64,000 nucleotides of DNA from the NCBI RefSeq assembly GCF_003130705.1, contig NZ_CP021354.1, forward strand, positions 5,828,001-5,892,000. Reading direction: 5' to 3'. Source of the DNA: Rhodococcus oxybenzonivorans. GTDB lineage: Bacteria > Actinomycetota > Actinomycetes > Mycobacteriales > Mycobacteriaceae. Of the stretch, positions 55,966 through 64,000 are shown piece by piece; within the stretch, counting starts at the first letter, position 1; every line of letters begins with the position of its first letter. The notes beneath the pieces are model-generated. The model saw only the letters and a program-made list of their open reading frames with translations, had not been told where the DNA came from and made no database searches. Made by a program: the position numbers and the translations under genes.

Positions 55966-56036
55966 GGCGCTCCGCGCCCCGTGAGTGGTTGACGAGTCCC
56001 TGGACTCGTTAACCACTCACGGGCGGCGGAGCCGCC
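55965..56036. terminator. Triple hairpin between convergent genes, with a 22-bp palindrome
   Basis: Three hairpins lie side by side: GGGCGC/GCGCCC (55965-55979), a 22-bp stem with one G:T pair (55978-55999 with 56002-56023, containing GAGTGGTTGACGAGTCC), and GGCGGC/GCCGCC (56022-56036). They separate the ROK gene from convergent catC. They probably act as a two-way terminator; the long central palindrome looks like a dispersed genome repeat. Confidence 0.65.
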
Positions 56037-56317
56037 TACTTGACGTCGGAACCGTGCCGGGTGAGCGCGGTGATCTCGATGTTCATGTAGGGGAACAGCG
56101 GCAGATTCCACAGTATTTCGTGGAGTTCGTCGGCCGAGTCGACGTCGAAAATGCTGATGTTGCTGTACTTTCCGACGATTCGCCAGATCTCCGGCCACTT
56201 ACCGGAGCGCTGCAGCTCCTGAGAGTAGGCCTTCTCCTTGGCGATGGTCTCGTCCCGGACGTCCGGGTCGAGATCGCGGGGAATGTTGACGTCCATCCGG
56301 ACGTGAAAGAGTGCCAT
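56036..56317 (-). CDS. catC: Muconolactone delta-isomerase
   Basis: 93 residues, full family length. MALFHVRMDVNIPRDLDPD start, catalytic-region EKAYSQELQRSGKW and LPLFPYMNIEITAL end. Converts muconolactone to 3-oxoadipate enol-lactone. Follows catB by 15 bp in the catABC operon. Confidence 0.96.
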   Translation of the reverse strand: MALFHVRMDVNIPRDLDPDVRDETIAKEKAYSQELQRSGKWPEIWRIVGKYSNISIFDVDSADELHEILWNLPLFPYMNIEITALTRHGSDVK

Positions 56318-56332: not shown

Positions 56333-57454
56333 TCAGTTCCTGGTCCAAGTCTTGACGGCATCCATGTTGAGCTCGACTCCGAGCCCGGGACCTTCGGGCA
56401 GATGCACCTTGCCGTCGCCGTACTGCAGTGGTTGCTGCAGCAGTTCTTCGCTGAACAGCAGGGGTCCGAACAGTTCGGAACCGAAGTCGATGCCGGGCTC
56501 CGAGCAGGCGAAGTGAATGGACGCCGCTGTGCCGATCGGCCCCTCGATGGACGTGGCTCCGTGGCAGGCGATGCCGGCCGCCTTGGCGATGGCCACCACC
56601 TCGCGACTGCGCTTGAGCCCACCGCATTTGGTGGTTTTCACGGCGATGACGTCGGCCGCGCCGCGCCGCGCGACCTCGAGAGCATCGTGCGGCGTCTGGA
56701 CACTTTCGTCCGCCATCACGGGGACGGGGACGAGCCGGTTGAGTTCGGCGAGGACCTCGAGCTGTTCACCGGGGGTGGGCTGCTCGATCAGTTCGACGCC
56801 GCCTTCGACGAGGAGGGGCACGTACTTCAGCGCGGTGAGCCGGTCCCAGCGGGCATTGACATCGATCCGGACGCCGGCCTTGCCCTGCAGTGCCTGGGCG
56901 ATCCGAACGACCCGGGCAGTGTCGACCTCCGGGTCGAGGGCGCCCATCTTGAGTTTGAAACTGAAGTGCCGCTTCGACTCGACGAGACCGAGGGCCTCCT
57001 CGACGATCTCCTCGGCGGGAGCGGCGCCGAGAGCCCAGGTGACCTCGACGCTGTCACGGAAGGCTCCGCCGAGCAGCGTATGCACCGGCACACCGAGGCT
57101 GCGCGCCCAGGCGTCGTGCAATGCGACGTCGACGGCGGCCTTCGCGAAACGCGCGTTCGCGACCACCCTTTCGATGTCCGACATGATTCCGGTGATCTCG
57201 TCGACACCCCGCCCCAGCAGGACCGGGACGATGTAACGCTTGACGATCGCCTGCATCGTCTCCACCGATTCGCCGCCCCACCACGGGCCGCCCGGAACGA
57301 CACCCTCGCCGTAACCGGTCACGCCGCCCGCGGTGGTGACGGCGACGAGCAGCAGTGGCTGCGCCGTCATCGACGTGGTGGCGAACTTGTGGGGACGCAC
57401 CAGCGGCACATCGAGGATCGTCGTTTCGACGGAAACGATAGACAGGTCGGTCAT
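56333..57454 (-). CDS. catB: Muconate cycloisomerase
   Basis: 373 residues of the enolase superfamily. Catalytic Lys pair in FKLKMG, metal ligands along RIDVNARWD, LIEQPT and MADESVQTP, and the second Lys in IAVKTTKCGG. Converts cis,cis-muconate to muconolactone. ATG at 57454; the longer frame has no ribosome site. Between catA and catC. Confidence 0.96.
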   Translation of the reverse strand: MTDLSIVSVETTILDVPLVRPHKFATTSMTAQPLLLVAVTTAGGVTGYGEGVVPGGPWWGGESVETMQAIVKRYIVPVLLGRGVDEITGIMSDIERVVANARFAKAAVDVALHDAWARSLGVPVHTLLGGAFRDSVEVTWALGAAPAEEIVEEALGLVESKRHFSFKLKMGALDPEVDTARVVRIAQALQGKAGVRIDVNARWDRLTALKYVPLLVEGGVELIEQPTPGEQLEVLAELNRLVPVPVMADESVQTPHDALEVARRGAADVIAVKTTKCGGLKRSREVVAIAKAAGIACHGATSIEGPIGTAASIHFACSEPGIDFGSELFGPLLFSEELLQQPLQYGDGKVHLPEGPGLGVELNMDAVKTWTRN

Positions 57455-57483
57455 CGAATCACTCTCTCTACGGGTGGAACAGC

Positions 57484-58395
<912 letters not shown>

Positions 58396-58419: not shown

Positions 58420-58478
58420 GTACGCTATGCGTACTAACATCACGCTGTGCGTACATATCTACTGTGCGCGCAGTCACA
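58420..58478. promoter_or_regulatory. catA promoter operators: paired CatR boxes plus CRP/GlxR-like site
   Basis: Box 1 is a perfect palindrome GTACGCTATGCGTAC (58420-58434). Box 2 (58440-58454, ending ACGCTGTGCGTAC) matches it at 13 of 15 positions after allowing R at the centre and starts exactly 20 bp later. A CRP/GlxR-like TGTGC-GCGCAG-TCACA follows at 58463-58478. The set lies between divergent catA and catR. The IclR-type CatR is the expected binder of the two boxes. Confidence 0.75.
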
Positions 58479-58535: not shown

Positions 58536-59305
58536 ATGCCCGAGAACGATCGCGACTACATCCAGAGCATCGAACGTGGCTTCGCAGTGCTTCTGGCCTT
58601 CGATGCGCAGCGCCCCAACCCGACACTGGCCGAACTCGCGACCGAAGCGGGGCTCTCGCGTCCCGCGGTCCGCCGGATCCTGCTCACACTGCAGAAGCTC
58701 GGTTACGTCGCCGGCTCGGGAGGCCGGTGGTCACTCACGCCCCGCGTGCTCAGCATCGGGCAGCACTACTCGGAGTCGCACGCCCTCATCGAGGCGGCGA
58801 TGCCGCGACTGCTCGAGGTGGCGGAGAAGACTCAGGAGTCGGCCTCGCTGGGAGTGCTCGACGGGGCCGACGTGGTCTACGCAGCGCGCGTTCCCGTCCG
58901 CCGGATCATGAGTATCAACGTCTCGGTAGGCACCCGCGTCCCCGCGTACGCCACGTCGATGGGGCGCGCACTGCTCGCGTGGGCTCCCGCCGACGTCGTC
59001 GAACGCGTGGTCAGCGAGTCGACCTTCGCCAAAACGGACCCGACACCATCGGCAGCGCCGCAGAGCTCGAACGTGAACTCACCAAGGTTCGTGAGCAAGG
59101 ATTCGCGTTGACGTCCGAGGAGCTCGAAAAGGGACTCATCTCGCTGGCCGCCCCGGTCCGGGACGCGGCGGGCTCCGTCGTGGGCGTGGTGGCCTGCTCC
59201 ACCTCCACTGCACGCAATACGCCCGCACAATTCCGGGAACAGGCCGTGCCGTGCGTCCTCGCCGCCGCGGCCGCCCTCAGCTCCGACATGGGGTTCGCGG
59301 GCTGA
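58536..59305 (+). pseudogene. catR: IclR-family regulator CatR, frameshifted
   Basis: The first part (58536 to about 59040) has the IclR helix-turn-helix (PTLAELATEAGLSRPAVRRIL) and effector-domain start VAEKTQESASLGVLDG, then runs into a foreign frame and stops at 59111. The following frame continues the family sequence (AAELERELTKVREQGFALTSEELEKGL, then PVRDAAGSVVGVV) to 59305. One base missing near 59036-59042 (AAAACGGACCC where one more G would give KTGPDTIG) explains it. Restored length is about 256 residues, normal for CatR. True mutation or sequencing error cannot be separated here. Divergent from catABC, whose activator or repressor it should be. Confidence 0.85.
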
Positions 59306-59319
59306 CAGCTGCGATCCGG

Positions 59320-59808
59320 CTACAGCGGGTCGAGCACGAATTCGCAGGACATCTCGTGCGTTGCGCCGGGTGGCGGTACCACCCGCGTCCCGAGCGAGCG
59401 GTAACCGCGCGCATGCACGATCACGTTGATGTGACCCACCTCGTTATCGCTGGGGACGCTGGAGAATTCGCACGGCGCGGGCTTGATGGTGGAGATGTCG
59501 AAGCGACCCCCGGCGCAGGTGACGACAATGCCGCGCAGGTTGTTGCGCAGAATCTCGACGGAGTACCCGGAATAGCATCCATCGGCGTCCGCGTGCCACA
59601 CCTCGAGCTCTGCCCCCGACAACGTTTCGCCGTCGCGCGACCGCACCACTCCCGTGATGCGCAGCGGAGTTCCGGGTTCACCGGGGAGTGCCGCGAGGTT
59701 TGCCTTCCAGGGCAGCACTCGCTGGGCGGGGAGGTAGAACTCCCGGTCGACGTGGTCGAGGCTTGCCCGATCCACGTGCGGTGCGGACGTGGTCGACGTC
59801 GAGGTCAT
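59320..59808 (-). CDS. Shortened intradiol ring-cleavage dioxygenase-like protein lacking two Fe ligands
   Basis: 162 residues aligned to the C-terminal barrel of CatA; the N-terminal helical domain is missing. ELEVWHADADGCYS keeps the first tyrosine ligand (Tyr79). The second tyrosine is Cys113 (KPAPCEF), at the same 34-residue spacing as in CatA. His126 is kept, but the second histidine is Asn128 (GHINVIV), and about 11 residues before it are deleted. Catalysis by the usual non-heme Fe(III) chemistry is therefore doubtful; a binding or regulatory role, or a different activity, is possible. The ATG at 59808 has only a weak ribosome site and the CatR-type boxes begin 21 bp upstream. Confidence 0.8.
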   Translation of the reverse strand: MTSTSTTSAPHVDRASLDHVDREFYLPAQRVLPWKANLAALPGEPGTPLRITGVVRSRDGETLSGAELEVWHADADGCYSGYSVEILRNNLRGIVVTCAGGRFDISTIKPAPCEFSSVPSDNEVGHINVIVHARGYRSLGTRVVPPPGATHEMSCEFVLDPL

Positions 59809-59828: not shown

Positions 59829-59888
59829 GTACGCTGTGCGTACCGCGAGAACGCTGTGCGGTCGTTATCGAGTGTGCTTGTAGTCACA
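59829..59888. promoter_or_regulatory. Second copy of the cat promoter layout: paired CatR-type boxes plus CRP/GlxR-like site
   Basis: Box 1 is a perfect GTACGCTGTGCGTAC (59829-59843). Box 2 (59849-59863, core ACGCTGTGCG) matches 12 of 15 and starts 20 bp later. TGTGC-TTGTAG-TCACA, with GTGTG/CACAC extended arms, lies at 59873-59888. Same order and spacing as upstream of catA. Governs the shortened dioxygenase gene leftward, and perhaps the thioesterase rightward. Confidence 0.75.
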
Positions 59889-60038
59889 CGGTTCGTCAAC
59901 CCGCGGCCCGTTCACATCGGGGACGGGTGGGCCCGGGGCATCCGTGGGATAATTGCCCCGCCATCGGCGGACAACGACGTTTCGCCGCCCCGGTTCGCGC
60001 TTTGTGCCGGCCACGTCGCATCCCCGAGGATTACATCG

Positions 60039-60986
60039 ATGAACACCCCTCCCCGCAGCATCACACTCCGCTTCCTCGCGGCACCCACGGAGGTAGCAAC
60101 CCTGGGCGGATCGATCCAGGGTGGTCGCATCCTCGAGTGGATCGACAAGGCCGCCTACGCGTGCGCGGTCGGCTGGAGTGGCGGCTACTGCGTCACCGCC
60201 TATGTGGGAAACATCCGCTTCACCCGATCGATCGAGTCCGGTCACCTGGTGGAGGTCGAGGCAAGGCTGGTGCACACGGGCCGCTCGAGCATGCACATCC
60301 AGTGCACGGTGTCCTCGGCCGACCCGCGTACCGGTGAGTTCACCGAGGCCAGTAACTGTCTGGTGATCTTCGTGGCCGTCGATGATTCCGGCAAGCCGAA
60401 GAACGTCCCGCCGTGGCGGCCCGTCACCGCCGAGGACCACGCCGAAGCCGACGAGGCGATCATGCGGGTCGGACTCCGCGCCGACATCGAAGAGGCGATG
60501 AGCAGGCAGGAATACACGGACAAGGGCACGGCACCCGTGTCGGTCATGAGATTTCTCGCAGCCCCCACCGACGTCAACTGGGGCGGCAAGACCCACGGTG
60601 GCACGGTGATGCGCTGGATCGACGAGGCCGCCTACCTCTGCGGTACCGCCTGGAGCGGCGGTCCGTGCGTCTCGGTGTACGCCGGTGGGGTCCGGTTCTA
60701 CCGGCCGATCCAGATCGGTCACGTCGTGGAGGTCGATGCCCGACTGCTCCATACCGGCGCGCAGACCATGCACATCTCGGTGCACGTGCGATCAGGCGAT
60801 CCGCGCACGGGCGAGATGAATCTGACCACCCACTGCCTCACCGTGGTCGCCGCGGTCGACGAGGAAGGCGCCGCAACCACAGTGCGGCAATGGATTCCGC
60901 AGTCCGACGAGGATCGCGGGCTCGAGGCCCACGCCCGGGAACTCATCGCGCTGCGTGCCCGTGCCCGGATCGGTGCCCTGTCGTAG
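60039..60986 (+). CDS. Double hot-dog acyl-CoA thioesterase
   Basis: About 315 residues made of two repeated 4HBT hot-dog domains. The first has GGSIQGGRILEWIDKAAYACA and the second GGKTHGGTVMRWIDEAAYLCG, each with a central-helix Asp; VEVEARLVHTG and VEVDARLLHTG are matching strands. Hydrolyses acyl-CoA thioesters in the cytosol (family knowledge). ATG 60039 with CGAGGA 8 bp before it. Its link to aromatic degradation is unclear; it may share the bidirectional promoter region. Confidence 0.9.
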   Translation: MNTPPRSITLRFLAAPTEVATLGGSIQGGRILEWIDKAAYACAVGWSGGYCVTAYVGNIRFTRSIESGHLVEVEARLVHTGRSSMHIQCTVSSADPRTGEFTEASNCLVIFVAVDDSGKPKNVPPWRPVTAEDHAEADEAIMRVGLRADIEEAMSRQEYTDKGTAPVSVMRFLAAPTDVNWGGKTHGGTVMRWIDEAAYLCGTAWSGGPCVSVYAGGVRFYRPIQIGHVVEVDARLLHTGAQTMHISVHVRSGDPRTGEMNLTTHCLTVVAAVDEEGAATTVRQWIPQSDEDRGLEAHARELIALRARARIGALS

Positions 60987-61016: not shown

Positions 61017-61955
61017 TCAGCCGCGCAGCACGTCCGACGGCGCCGCCCCGTACTTCTTCCGGAACGCCGCCGCGAACCGGCCGGTGTGGGTGAACCCCCA
61101 CCGCATCGCGACATCGGACACCGTGGCCGAGGGGTCGGCGCGGAGCAGGTCGGCGTGGACACGATCGAGCCGCACGTCGAGCAGGTAGTCGCGGGGGCTC
61201 ACCCCGACGTACTCCTGGAATCCCTCCTGAAGGCGCCGGACCCCGACACCCGCGATCTCGGCCATCTCGGCGGCCGTCCACGCCCGCGCGGGGTCGGCGT
61301 GGATCTCGTCGATGACCCGCTTGACGATGCGCGGCCGGGTACCGGCACCGGCCGTCTCGTCGTCCGGGATCGCTGCCAGGACCAGTGCCGTGGTGACCGC
61401 CCCCGACAGCTGCTCGGCGACGAGAGGGTTGGCGTAGACACCGTCCGAACGCAACATCTGATCGAGGAGTGACCGCACCAACGCCAGCCAACTGGCACCG
61501 TTCTCGCTGGTCAGATCGAATTGCGGGGGAAGGCGCAGTCCGGGCCGCGCCAGAATCCGCGCCATCTCCCTGTGTAAGTAGTCGCGGTCGACCCGCACCC
61601 CGATGATCGAGCAGTCCTTGCTCCAGTCGGTGATGAGCGTCGTGGTGTCGGGTGGACAGATGGTCCCCGACCCGGGCACCGACGACACCTCGGTCTTCCC
61701 GGTCACCGACTCCAGGTGTCCCGACAGCGGCACGTTCACCGCGTACGCACCCGGGTGATCCGACTGGATCGATACGTCGGCTCCCCACCCGATGTGGGTG
61801 ATCTTCACCGGGCCCAGCTCCACGGCTTGCGCGACCGTATTGCCGGCGGTCTCTCTGCTCAGCGGGGTCAGGCGGTGCGGGAAGTAGACGTCCGACACCA
61901 CGTGCGACGCCTCGTCCCAATCATCGGAACGGACGAACCTGGACGTGGTCGACAT
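61017..61955 (-). CDS. AraC-family regulator, probable activator of the phenol hydroxylase genes
   Basis: About 312 residues. An N-terminal AraC-ligand-binding-like domain precedes the C-terminal double helix-turn-helix (WTAAEMAEIAGVGVRRLQEGFQEYVGVSPRDYLLDVRLDRVH, then VSDVAMRWGFTHTGRFAAAFRKKYGAAPSDVL). AraC regulators of this type control phenol or benzoate genes in rhodococci. Divergent from the flavin reductase/monooxygenase pair, with direct repeats at 62015-62048. The true start is 61955; the longer 636-residue frame runs through the divergent reductase gene. Confidence 0.9.
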   Translation of the reverse strand: MSTTSRFVRSDDWDEASHVVSDVYFPHRLTPLSRETAGNTVAQAVELGPVKITHIGWGADVSIQSDHPGAYAVNVPLSGHLESVTGKTEVSSVPGSGTICPPDTTTLITDWSKDCSIIGVRVDRDYLHREMARILARPGLRLPPQFDLTSENGASWLALVRSLLDQMLRSDGVYANPLVAEQLSGAVTTALVLAAIPDDETAGAGTRPRIVKRVIDEIHADPARAWTAAEMAEIAGVGVRRLQEGFQEYVGVSPRDYLLDVRLDRVHADLLRADPSATVSDVAMRWGFTHTGRFAAAFRKKYGAAPSDVLRG

Positions 61956-62120: not shown

Positions 62121-62681
62121 ATGGAACAGCGCGAACTCCGGAACATTTTCGGACAGTTCGCCAGCGGAGTCACTGTCATCACGTGCAGCAACTCCGACGG
62201 CGAACCGCACGGGGCCACCGTCACCGCCTTCACCGCCGTCTCCCTCGAGCCACGGCTGTGCCAGGTGACGCTGACCCGTAAGTCGAAGGCGTGCCGCTAC
62301 CTCAGCAACGCGCCCTTCGCGGTGAACATCCTGGCCGCCGACCAGGTCGACACAGCACTGCATTTCGCCGGCCGGCCGCAGGAGCCGCAGCCGACATGGA
62401 CGGACGGCCCCACCGCCCCCGTCCTCTGCGGCTCGGCCGCCACGCTGTCGTGCGTGCCGTGGGCCGAGTACGACGGCGGCGACCATCTCATCTTCATCGG
62501 CGAGATCGTCGACGCGCAGACCACAGGAAAGGATCCGTTGCTGTTCTACCGCAGCACATTCCACGACCTCGGCACCCCGTCGGCTTCGGCCGCCTGGAAC
62601 GGTTCCATGGACGACCCGCACAGTGGCTGGTTCGACGCCACCACCTCGTTCACCCCGTTCCATCTCCACACCGTCTCCTGA
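62121..62681 (+). CDS. Flavin reductase component of a two-component aromatic monooxygenase
   Basis: 186 residues of the HpaC/flavin-reductase family: [40 protein letters not shown] and late [15 protein letters not shown]. Supplies reduced FAD to the oxygenase encoded 28 bp downstream. ATG 62121 follows GAAGGGAGG. Resembles PheA2-type reductases of rhodococcal phenol hydroxylases. Confidence 0.92.
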
Positions 62682-62709: not shown

Positions 62710-64000
62710 ATGACCACCACCGAATCCGCCCCCGACACCGCCGTCGACCGCACCAAGGTCAACGTCGCCGCCGACAGCGAGGTGAATCGCACGAAGAACT
62801 TCGCGTCGCGGCCCATGACCGGCGACGAGTACATCGAATCGTTGCGTGACGATCGCGAGATCTGGTTACACGGCGAGCGTGTCGAGGACGTCACCACCCA
62901 CCCGGCGTTCCGGAACCCCATTCGCATGACTGCCCGTCTCTACGACTCGATGCACACCGGTGAGCACGTCGACAAGGTCACCACCCCCACCGACACCGGA
63001 AACGGCGGCGTCACCATGCCGTTCTTCAAGGCGCCGACCTCGTCCGACGACCTCCTGAAGGAGCGCGACGCCATCGCCACCTGGGCGCGGATGACGTACG
63101 GCTGGATGGGCCGGTCCCCCGACTACAAGGCGTCCTTCCTCGGAACCCTGCACGCGAACAAGGAGCTGTACTCGCCGTTCCAGGACAACGCCGAACGCTG
63201 GTACAAGGAGTCGCAGGAGAAGGTTCTCTACTGGAACCACGCCATCATCAATCCTCCTGTGGACCGGCAGCTGCCCCCGGACGAGGTCGGCGACGTGTTC
63301 ATGAAGGTGGAGAAGGAAACCGACGCGGGCCTGATCGTCTCCGGCGCCAAGGTCGTGGCCACAGGCTCGGCGATCACCAACTACAACTTCATCGCCCATT
63401 ACGGCCTGCCGATCAAGAAGAAGGAATTCGCGCTCATCTGCACGGTGCCGATGGACGCACCGGGCGTGAAGCTGATCTGCCGGTCCTCGTTCACCCAGAA
63501 CGCCGCGGTGATGGGCACCCCGTTCGACTACCCGCTGTCGAGCCGGATGGACGAGAACGACACCATCTTCATCTTCGACAAGGTCCTCGTGCCGTGGGAA
63601 AACGTTTTCATGTACGGCGACGTCGACAAGATCAACGGCTTCTTCCCGCAGTCGGGCTTCTTGCCCCGCTTCACTTTTCAGGGCTGTACCCGCCTCGCCG
63701 TGAAGCTCGACTTCATCGCCGGCATGCTGATGAAGGCACTCGACGCCACCGGAGCGGGCGGCTTCCGAGGCGTGCAGACCCGAGTCGGGGAAGTGATCGG
63801 CTGGCGAAACCTGTTCTGGTCCCTCACCGAATCGATGGCACGCAACCCGGAGCCCTGGATCGGCGACACCGTCATCCCCAAGCTCGAATACGGCCTCACC
63901 TACCGCATGTTCATGATCCAGGGCTACCCCCGCATCAAGGAGATCATCGAGCAGGATGTGGCATCCGGGCTGATCTACCTGCCGTCGTCGGCCGCCGACT
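62710..64000 (+). CDS. FADH2-dependent phenol/4-hydroxyphenylacetate monooxygenase, oxygenase component (3' end outside window)
   Basis: At least 430 residues, open at the window edge. HpaB-family features: [25 protein letters not shown] near the N-terminus, [26 protein letters not shown], and [11 protein letters not shown]. Hydroxylates a phenol ortho to the OH using FADH2 from the reductase. Next to catABC this suits a phenol hydroxylase (PheA1-type) yielding catechol, but 4-hydroxyphenylacetate or nitrophenol specificity cannot be excluded. Confidence 0.92.

Follow-up and report, generated by a model that had tools for sequence, protein, structure and literature searches.

Results

A short CatA relative with an altered iron site

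The DNA analysed here, which we call the window, is a stretch of 64,000 nt from Rhodococcus oxybenzonivorans (contig NZ_CP021354.1, positions 5,828,001 to 5,892,000). It contains catA (57484..58326, minus strand; start taken at ATG), the gene for a catechol 1,2-dioxygenase whose iron ligands, Tyr162, Tyr196, His220 and His222, are intact. On the same strand lies a short CatA-like gene (59320..59808), the subject of this study. Its frame is open from an ATG start, and its product of 162 amino acids is an intradiol domain that lacks both the N-terminal helical domain and the 2-Tyr/2-His iron site.

The short protein belongs to the Pfam family Dioxygenase_C (PF00775), with a score of 52.3 bits against a cut-off of 27.3. 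It has no match to PF04444, the N-terminal helical domain of CatA, which is found in the CatA of the window. With TIGR02438, the equivalog model for catechol 1,2-dioxygenase, it scores 76.8 bits against a cut-off of 404.4, and the CatA of the window scores 509. With TIGR02423, the model for the alpha chain of protocatechuate 3,4-dioxygenase, it reaches 31.9 bits against a cut-off of 126.25; the NCBIfam models for the alpha and beta chains give E-values of 1.1e-7 and 1e-5, respectively. AlphaFold2 models, compared with structures in the PDB, place the protein in the CatA-like beta-sandwich fold.

We compared iron-site residues in an alignment of 56 rows, made up of 13 short-family rows, some nearly duplicating the 11 genomic orthologues described below, and 43 other intradiol rows. 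CatA numbering is that of a 280-amino-acid CatA, i.e. the open reading frame number minus 20, with the start taken at ATG. Tyr79, Cys113, His126 and Asn128 of the short protein (codons at 59572..59574, 59470..59472, 59431..59433 and 59425..59427, minus strand) align with CatA Tyr162, Tyr196, His220 and His222, and the Tyr-to-Tyr/Cys spacing is 34 residues in both proteins. Both observations agree with the initial annotation of this DNA, which was made from the sequence alone. According to the passages considered here of PMC8231159, a review of iron complexes, catechol 1,2-dioxygenase holds its iron axially through the second Tyr and second His and equatorially through the first Tyr and first His. 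By this assignment the two replaced ligands are the axial pair, and the equatorial pair is kept.

The changes extend beyond the ligands. An 11-residue gap ahead of His126 in the short family deletes CatA Arg217, and the position of CatA Gln236 is Arg142 in all 13 short-family rows. Second-shell Arg and Gln residues are important for catalysis by catechol 1,2-dioxygenase. The short protein therefore lacks the ligand set, the second-shell Arg and Gln, and the N-terminal domain of proteins of the TIGR02438 type. Tyr79, Cys113, Asn128, Arg142, Cys78, Cys98 and Cys155 are invariant over the 13 rows, and the four cysteines (78, 98, 113 and 155) are new relative to CatA. His126 is present in 12 of the 13. 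Of the 43 intradiol rows outside the family, all have His at position 128, 42 have Gln at position 142, and 37 have Tyr at position 113, where the other six have a gap.

The altered residues are a fixed trait of a family

Orthologues of the short gene are present in 11 of 28 genomes of the genus: the window copy and ten others at 78-83% identity. The remaining 17 genomes comprise 13 that match only longer intradiol genes (frames of at least 240 amino acids) and four without any match. The initial annotation had called the gene intact, and the frame is open here and in all 11 orthologues. It had also reasoned that relatives that all kept Tyr and His would mark this copy as a decaying mutant, and had proposed checking them for Cys113 and Asn128. 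The opposite of that outcome was seen: both Cys and Asn, and indeed the whole Tyr/Cys/His/Asn set, are present in 11 of 11. Protein searches added P0010 and P0012, divergent members from rhodococci with identities of 53-56%, and both retain Tyr79, Cys113 and Asn128. We conclude that the altered ligand set is a fixed trait of the family and not a sign of decay.

A contig scan for relatives gave 11 loci, six of them short-family members and five CatA-like or other intradiol genes. Across 401 genomes of the taxonomic family, including the 28 of the genus, the matches listed included no additional short member, and the best of them outside the genus scored 89.8 bits and lay in a frame of 303 amino acids. 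Searches of two more genera (four and nine genomes) with P0012 returned only frames of at least 290 amino acids and no short member. A further protein, P0008, has 188 amino acids and is encoded on a contig of 2,247 bp; its last four fifths are 94% like the window protein and its N-terminus is foreign, so that it is either a natural fusion or a chimeric assembly.

In a protein tree of 58 rows, the short family forms one clade (support 100/100) on a very long stem. With two long rows removed (56 rows), grouping of the family with five CatA rows of the opacus clade gave a p-value of 0.08 in the approximately unbiased test, and grouping with a set of 19 CatA rows around those of Rhodococcus gave 0.32.

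The short gene is under purifying selection

For the short gene, the ratio of nonsynonymous to synonymous substitution rates (dN/dS) has a pairwise median of 0.18 when the ten relatives are compared with one another and of 0.225 when they are compared with the window copy; over all pairs it ranges from 0.12 to 0.30 for the whole gene. The medians among relatives are 0.061 for catA, 0.084 for catB and 0.065 for catR, and median dN is 0.076 for the short gene versus 0.013 for catA. Neither a broken frame nor neutral evolution, the marks of a pseudogene, was found in the relatives. The pooled ratio of nonsynonymous to synonymous differences (pN/pS) for the short gene is 0.210 (bootstrap 0.153-0.269). 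Constraint is strongest at residues 63-117, which hold Tyr79 and Cys113 (pN/pS 0.084, 0.033-0.160); the matching stretch of catA gives 0.058. The ratio is 0.33 and 0.38 towards the C-terminus and 0.45 in the N-terminal tail. The window copy lacks a stretch of 17 amino acids near the C-terminus that is whole or nearly whole in the other ten orthologues, and this stretch falls within a fast-evolving part of the gene.

Over the 11 genomes, 107 columns have an invariant residue and 65 of these vary in synonymous codons. Synonymous variation is seen at Tyr79, Cys98, Cys113, His126 and Arg142, with Cys113 encoded by TGC in six genomes and TGT in five.

The short gene has a promoter related to that of catA

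A tandem CatR-type operator, CGCANAGCGT-N10-CGCANAGCGT, is predicted from sequence upstream of the short gene (59831..59860, minus strand), its box 2 beginning 32 nt before the ATG. A TTGAC element (59895..59899, minus strand), paralogous to that of the catA promoter (PcatA), lies 39 nt upstream of box 1. The other copy of the operator is in the catA/catR intergenic region (58422..58451, minus strand). In the 8.0-Mb genome the two-box pattern occurs at exactly these two sites and the reversed control at none; the single-box pattern finds the same two places. Across the 28 genomes of the genus there are 30 matches in 20 genomes, none in the other eight, and none to the reversed pattern. Every genome with the short gene has one match ahead of it, 11 in all, and nine more are at catA of those genomes; one is at a second catA-like match in genome G004, and the remaining nine are at catA in as many genomes that lack the short gene. 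Two genomes with the short gene, G024 and G016, have a catA operator that deviates from the pattern and was not counted. Chance occurrence of the operator is ruled out by both comparisons with the reversed pattern.

The CatR consensus of R. erythropolis is GTACGC-N3-GCGTAC, and tandem sites of the IclR family have 18-22 nt between centres, in the passages considered here of PMC8222616. The two boxes at the short gene are 20 nt apart in all 11 genomes; in the window, box 2 matches the palindrome in full and box 1 matches its core only. The stretch from TTGAC to the boxes shares 26-30 identities with PcatA over 39-40 positions, and in each of the 11 genomes none of 500 shuffles was as good. The distance from TTGAC to box 1 is 39-40 nt at the short gene and 39 nt at catA, and that from box to box is 20 nt at both. 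Judged by this similarity, the promoter of the short gene is a paralogue of PcatA. The catechol-type promoter of the initial annotation is thus borne out, and its claim that the gene has operators of its own can be strengthened, since genome-wide the two-box operator is found only at catA/catR and at the short gene. The two promoters differ in the distance from box 2 to the ATG, which is 30-32 nt at the short gene versus 103-106 nt at catA; the short-gene transcript may therefore have a very short leader.

CatR represses catA in R. opacus PD630, with cis,cis-muconate the likely inducer, in the passages considered here of PMC9582017, and CatR probably controls the short gene as well, to judge from its operator. 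In the window, catR itself (58536..59305, plus strand; IclR family) has a frame broken at about 59030-59050, which the initial annotation did not foresee. The open frame is 191 amino acids, versus an intact 256 in ten of ten relatives. A protein search with the broken frame found no 191-amino-acid form among the best 120 of 451 matches, so an assembly error is possible; the break is either a lesion or such an error.

The short gene lies between phenol hydroxylase and catechol genes

Downstream of catA on the minus strand are an adjoining gene (56333..57487) and a further one (56036..56317), which we take to be catB and catC from their position beside catA. A gene that is presumably for glucose-6-phosphate dehydrogenase lies at about 53.1-55.0 kb, on the far side of catABC. 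On the other side of the short gene, and divergent from it, is a thioesterase-superfamily gene with two 4HBT stretches (60039..60986, plus strand), followed by a gene for an AraC-family regulator (61017..61955, minus strand), a gene for a flavin reductase, component 2 of phenol hydroxylase (62121..62681, plus strand), which we take to be PheA2-like, and a gene that runs off the window (62710..64000, plus strand), whose frame we read as that of a probable phenol hydroxylase oxygenase, presumably PheA1-like. The upstream region common to the thioesterase and short genes holds a strongly conserved GGGAAATTATCCCAC-like stretch, at about 59940-59960.

This arrangement is conserved. Neighbourhood counts cover the 11 genomes of the genus, and the members in R. 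daqingensis and NPDC059234 lie outside them. The order pheA2, araC, thioesterase gene, short gene, catR, catA is found in 11 of 11, with the thioesterase-superfamily gene as next neighbour of the short gene each time, and this places the short gene between phenol hydroxylase and the catR-catA start of the catechol branch. In ten genomes catB and catC come next; the PMG_259 contig ends within catA. Seven of the 11 have an extra 1.55 kb between araC and the thioesterase gene, which the window and three others are without. In R. wratislaviensis this space holds a gene of 494 amino acids (L005 3288-4772, minus strand), which we assume to be multicopper-oxidase-like. In R. daqingensis, the short protein P0012 is encoded on a contig of 408,819 bp and a CatR homologue (P0123) on one of 259,955 bp, and linkage to catR may therefore not hold in that species.

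A probable orthologue in R. opacus 1CP is induced on phenol

The passages considered here of a study of R. opacus 1CP (PMC13101518) describe a "CatA3" named catechol 1,2-dioxygenase, with the entry "id 33%". They list CatA3 as WP_005264055, CatR as WP_005264056 and a PheA1 as WP_005264050. This CatA3 is probably the orthologue of the short gene, because the accessions run in an order that matches the genes here and the stated 33% is near the identity with CatA that we see. A point against this identity is that Table 3 of the study has a glucose-6-phosphate dehydrogenase row between catABC and CatA3, whereas the presumed gene of this kind in the window is beyond catABC. In the same table, CatA3 is up on phenol (wild type) and p-cresol (triple mutant) and not on styrene, whereas catABC is up on all three. 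A PaaI-family thioesterase is also up on phenol in this strain (PMC13101518).

Discussion

What is the function of a well-preserved CatA relative with permanently exchanged ligands, kept by a set of soil Rhodococcus under the same switch as catA? These properties suggest that the short gene probably has a job in phenol breakdown other than the one on its label. The reading we favour, with a confidence that is about even, is that it is a conserved CatA paralogue of the CatR regulon, has ceased to act as a catechol 1,2-dioxygenase and has a rebuilt, non-cleaving ligand pocket. We infer the inactivity from the combined loss of the axial ligands, Arg and Gln. The most likely role would be non-cleaving binding of a pathway ligand, a quinone or a metal at that pocket, or support of CatA. 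The simplest history would be that catA was copied together with its promoter. Muconate would then free the shared operator from CatR, and the short protein would be made together with CatA on phenol or benzoate. The rebuilt pocket (Tyr79, Cys113, His126 and Asn128) would bind a catechol-type ligand, the corresponding quinone or a metal but not cleave the ring, and the protein would thereby buffer or trap a reactive intermediate, or assist CatA. The initial annotation had thought it plausible that selection favours a non-catalytic role or another chemistry; Cys and Asn in 11 of 11 orthologues, codon turnover at Cys113, low pN/pS and an operator in every carrying genome fit this view. Several roles and chemistries are candidates.

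Several observations weigh against the reading of a non-cleaving, CatR-controlled paralogue. The ligand change alone is no proof of inactivity, because intradiol chemistry survives, according to PDB titles, in a protocatechuate 3,4-dioxygenase double mutant whose axial ligands are swapped. His126 is replaced by Tyr in P0010. Constraint is uneven around the site: residues 125-133, which include His126 and Asn128, have a pN/pS of 0.167 versus 0.000 in the matching stretch of catA, and the loop 118-124 has 0.64. Cys78, Asn128 and Cys155 each have the same codon throughout and so add no evidence of turnover. Because of the long stem, neither of the groupings with CatA rows is shown or rejected. 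Co-induction with catABC is incomplete, given the styrene result for CatA3 in the passages considered here of PMC13101518, and CatR control may be lost in this strain given the frameshift.

A more specific reading, which we consider rather unlikely as stated, is that exchange of the axial pair (Tyr to Cys, His to Asn), with the equatorial Tyr and His kept, turned an intradiol dioxygenase into a new kind of metal or catechol site. Lacking the catalytic Arg and Gln, the protein might bind an iron(III)-catecholate, or capture an o-quinone at Cys113, and not turn it over; it would then act as a muconate-induced protective buffer during phenol degradation. Catechol binding displaces the axial Tyr of the active enzyme, in the passages considered here of PMC8231159, and the site of the short protein may therefore be pre-opened for a bidentate catecholate. 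A second candidate role, which we regard as unlikely, is that of a non-catalytic subunit or chaperone in direct contact with CatA, or with another intradiol enzyme, just as protocatechuate 3,4-dioxygenase pairs its alpha chain with the beta chain. The promoter module and neighbourhood common with catA are consistent with such a partner, as are a short domain without N-terminal helices, like that of the alpha chain PcaG, and the lower E-value with the alpha-chain model (1.1e-7 versus 1e-5 for beta). However, the alpha-chain score falls far short of its cut-off (31.9 versus 126.25 bits), the strongest constraint (residues 63-117) lies around the former active site rather than at any demonstrated interface, and CatA of R. 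opacus 1CP has been solved under PDB titles that name no such partner.

It is doubtful that the protein is an enzyme with a new chemistry, in which Cys113 would serve as a nucleophile or bind a metal as thiolate, for instance alongside His126 and Asn128. Cys113 and Asn128 are present in 13 of 13 rows, Cys113 with codon turnover, and residues 63-117 are about as constrained as in active CatA; set against this are the Tyr at position 126 of P0010 and the weaker constraint than in CatA at residues 125-133. That the protein is still a functional catechol 1,2-dioxygenase in altered form, as the database and paper names ("catechol 1,2-dioxygenase", "CatA3") have it, is very unlikely. Both equatorial ligands are kept, and an axial swap is tolerated in the protocatechuate 3,4-dioxygenase mutant. 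In the short family, however, the axial positions hold different residues instead of a swapped pair, the catalytic Arg and Gln are also gone, and the TIGR02438 score is 76.8 bits against 404.4. A decaying relic of a catA duplication is highly improbable. The gene evolves faster than catA (median dN 0.076 versus 0.013) and the window copy is missing 17 amino acids, but the selection data contradict decay, and both of the divergent members (53-56% identity) have the altered residues fixed as well, apart from His126 in one of them. We rejected a relic on the basis of intact frames and operators in 11 of 11 genomes, dN/dS of 0.12-0.30 and codon turnover at Cys113.

These findings have consequences for annotation. 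A protein that carries the annotation catechol 1,2-dioxygenase, and that has probably been taken for a third active copy in R. opacus grown on phenol, is without the residues that define the enzyme, and the label is unwarranted for the short gene without an assay. This argues for caution with annotation-based dioxygenase counts in strains for lignin and phenol bioconversion. Besides the catA/catR pair, the short gene alone sits behind this two-box operator in the genome. CatA and a fixed axial-ligand variant in one cell are a clean natural pair for asking what roles the intradiol fold can have without ring cleavage.

How does the short protein compare with known systems? In PcaG, a short intradiol domain that lacks a functional iron site accompanies a catalytic relative. 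The short protein differs in being of the CatA type in sequence and far below the alpha-chain cut-off. A literature search found, among the titles and abstract openings it covered, no bacterial intradiol paralogue without iron ligands, which is weak evidence of absence since subscription journals lay mostly outside its reach, and the passages considered of a report on spider-mite intradiol paralogues (PMC9167512) contain nothing on lost ligands. The single-domain intradiol dioxygenases SACTE_2871 (PDB 4ILT), of the spider mite (5VG2) and of a phage (9YH9) resemble the short protein in size and fold; they are dioxygenases by PDB title, whereas the short family is without the iron-ligand set. 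CatA3 carries the name catechol 1,2-dioxygenase, with no mention of iron-ligand loss in the passages considered of PMC13101518, whereas in the short gene the axial ligands are replaced. CatA of R. opacus 1CP (PDB 3HGI, 3HJ8) is 33% identical to the short protein. Relative to this enzyme, the short protein is without the N-terminal domain, the axial ligands, Arg and Gln, and has four new invariant cysteines.
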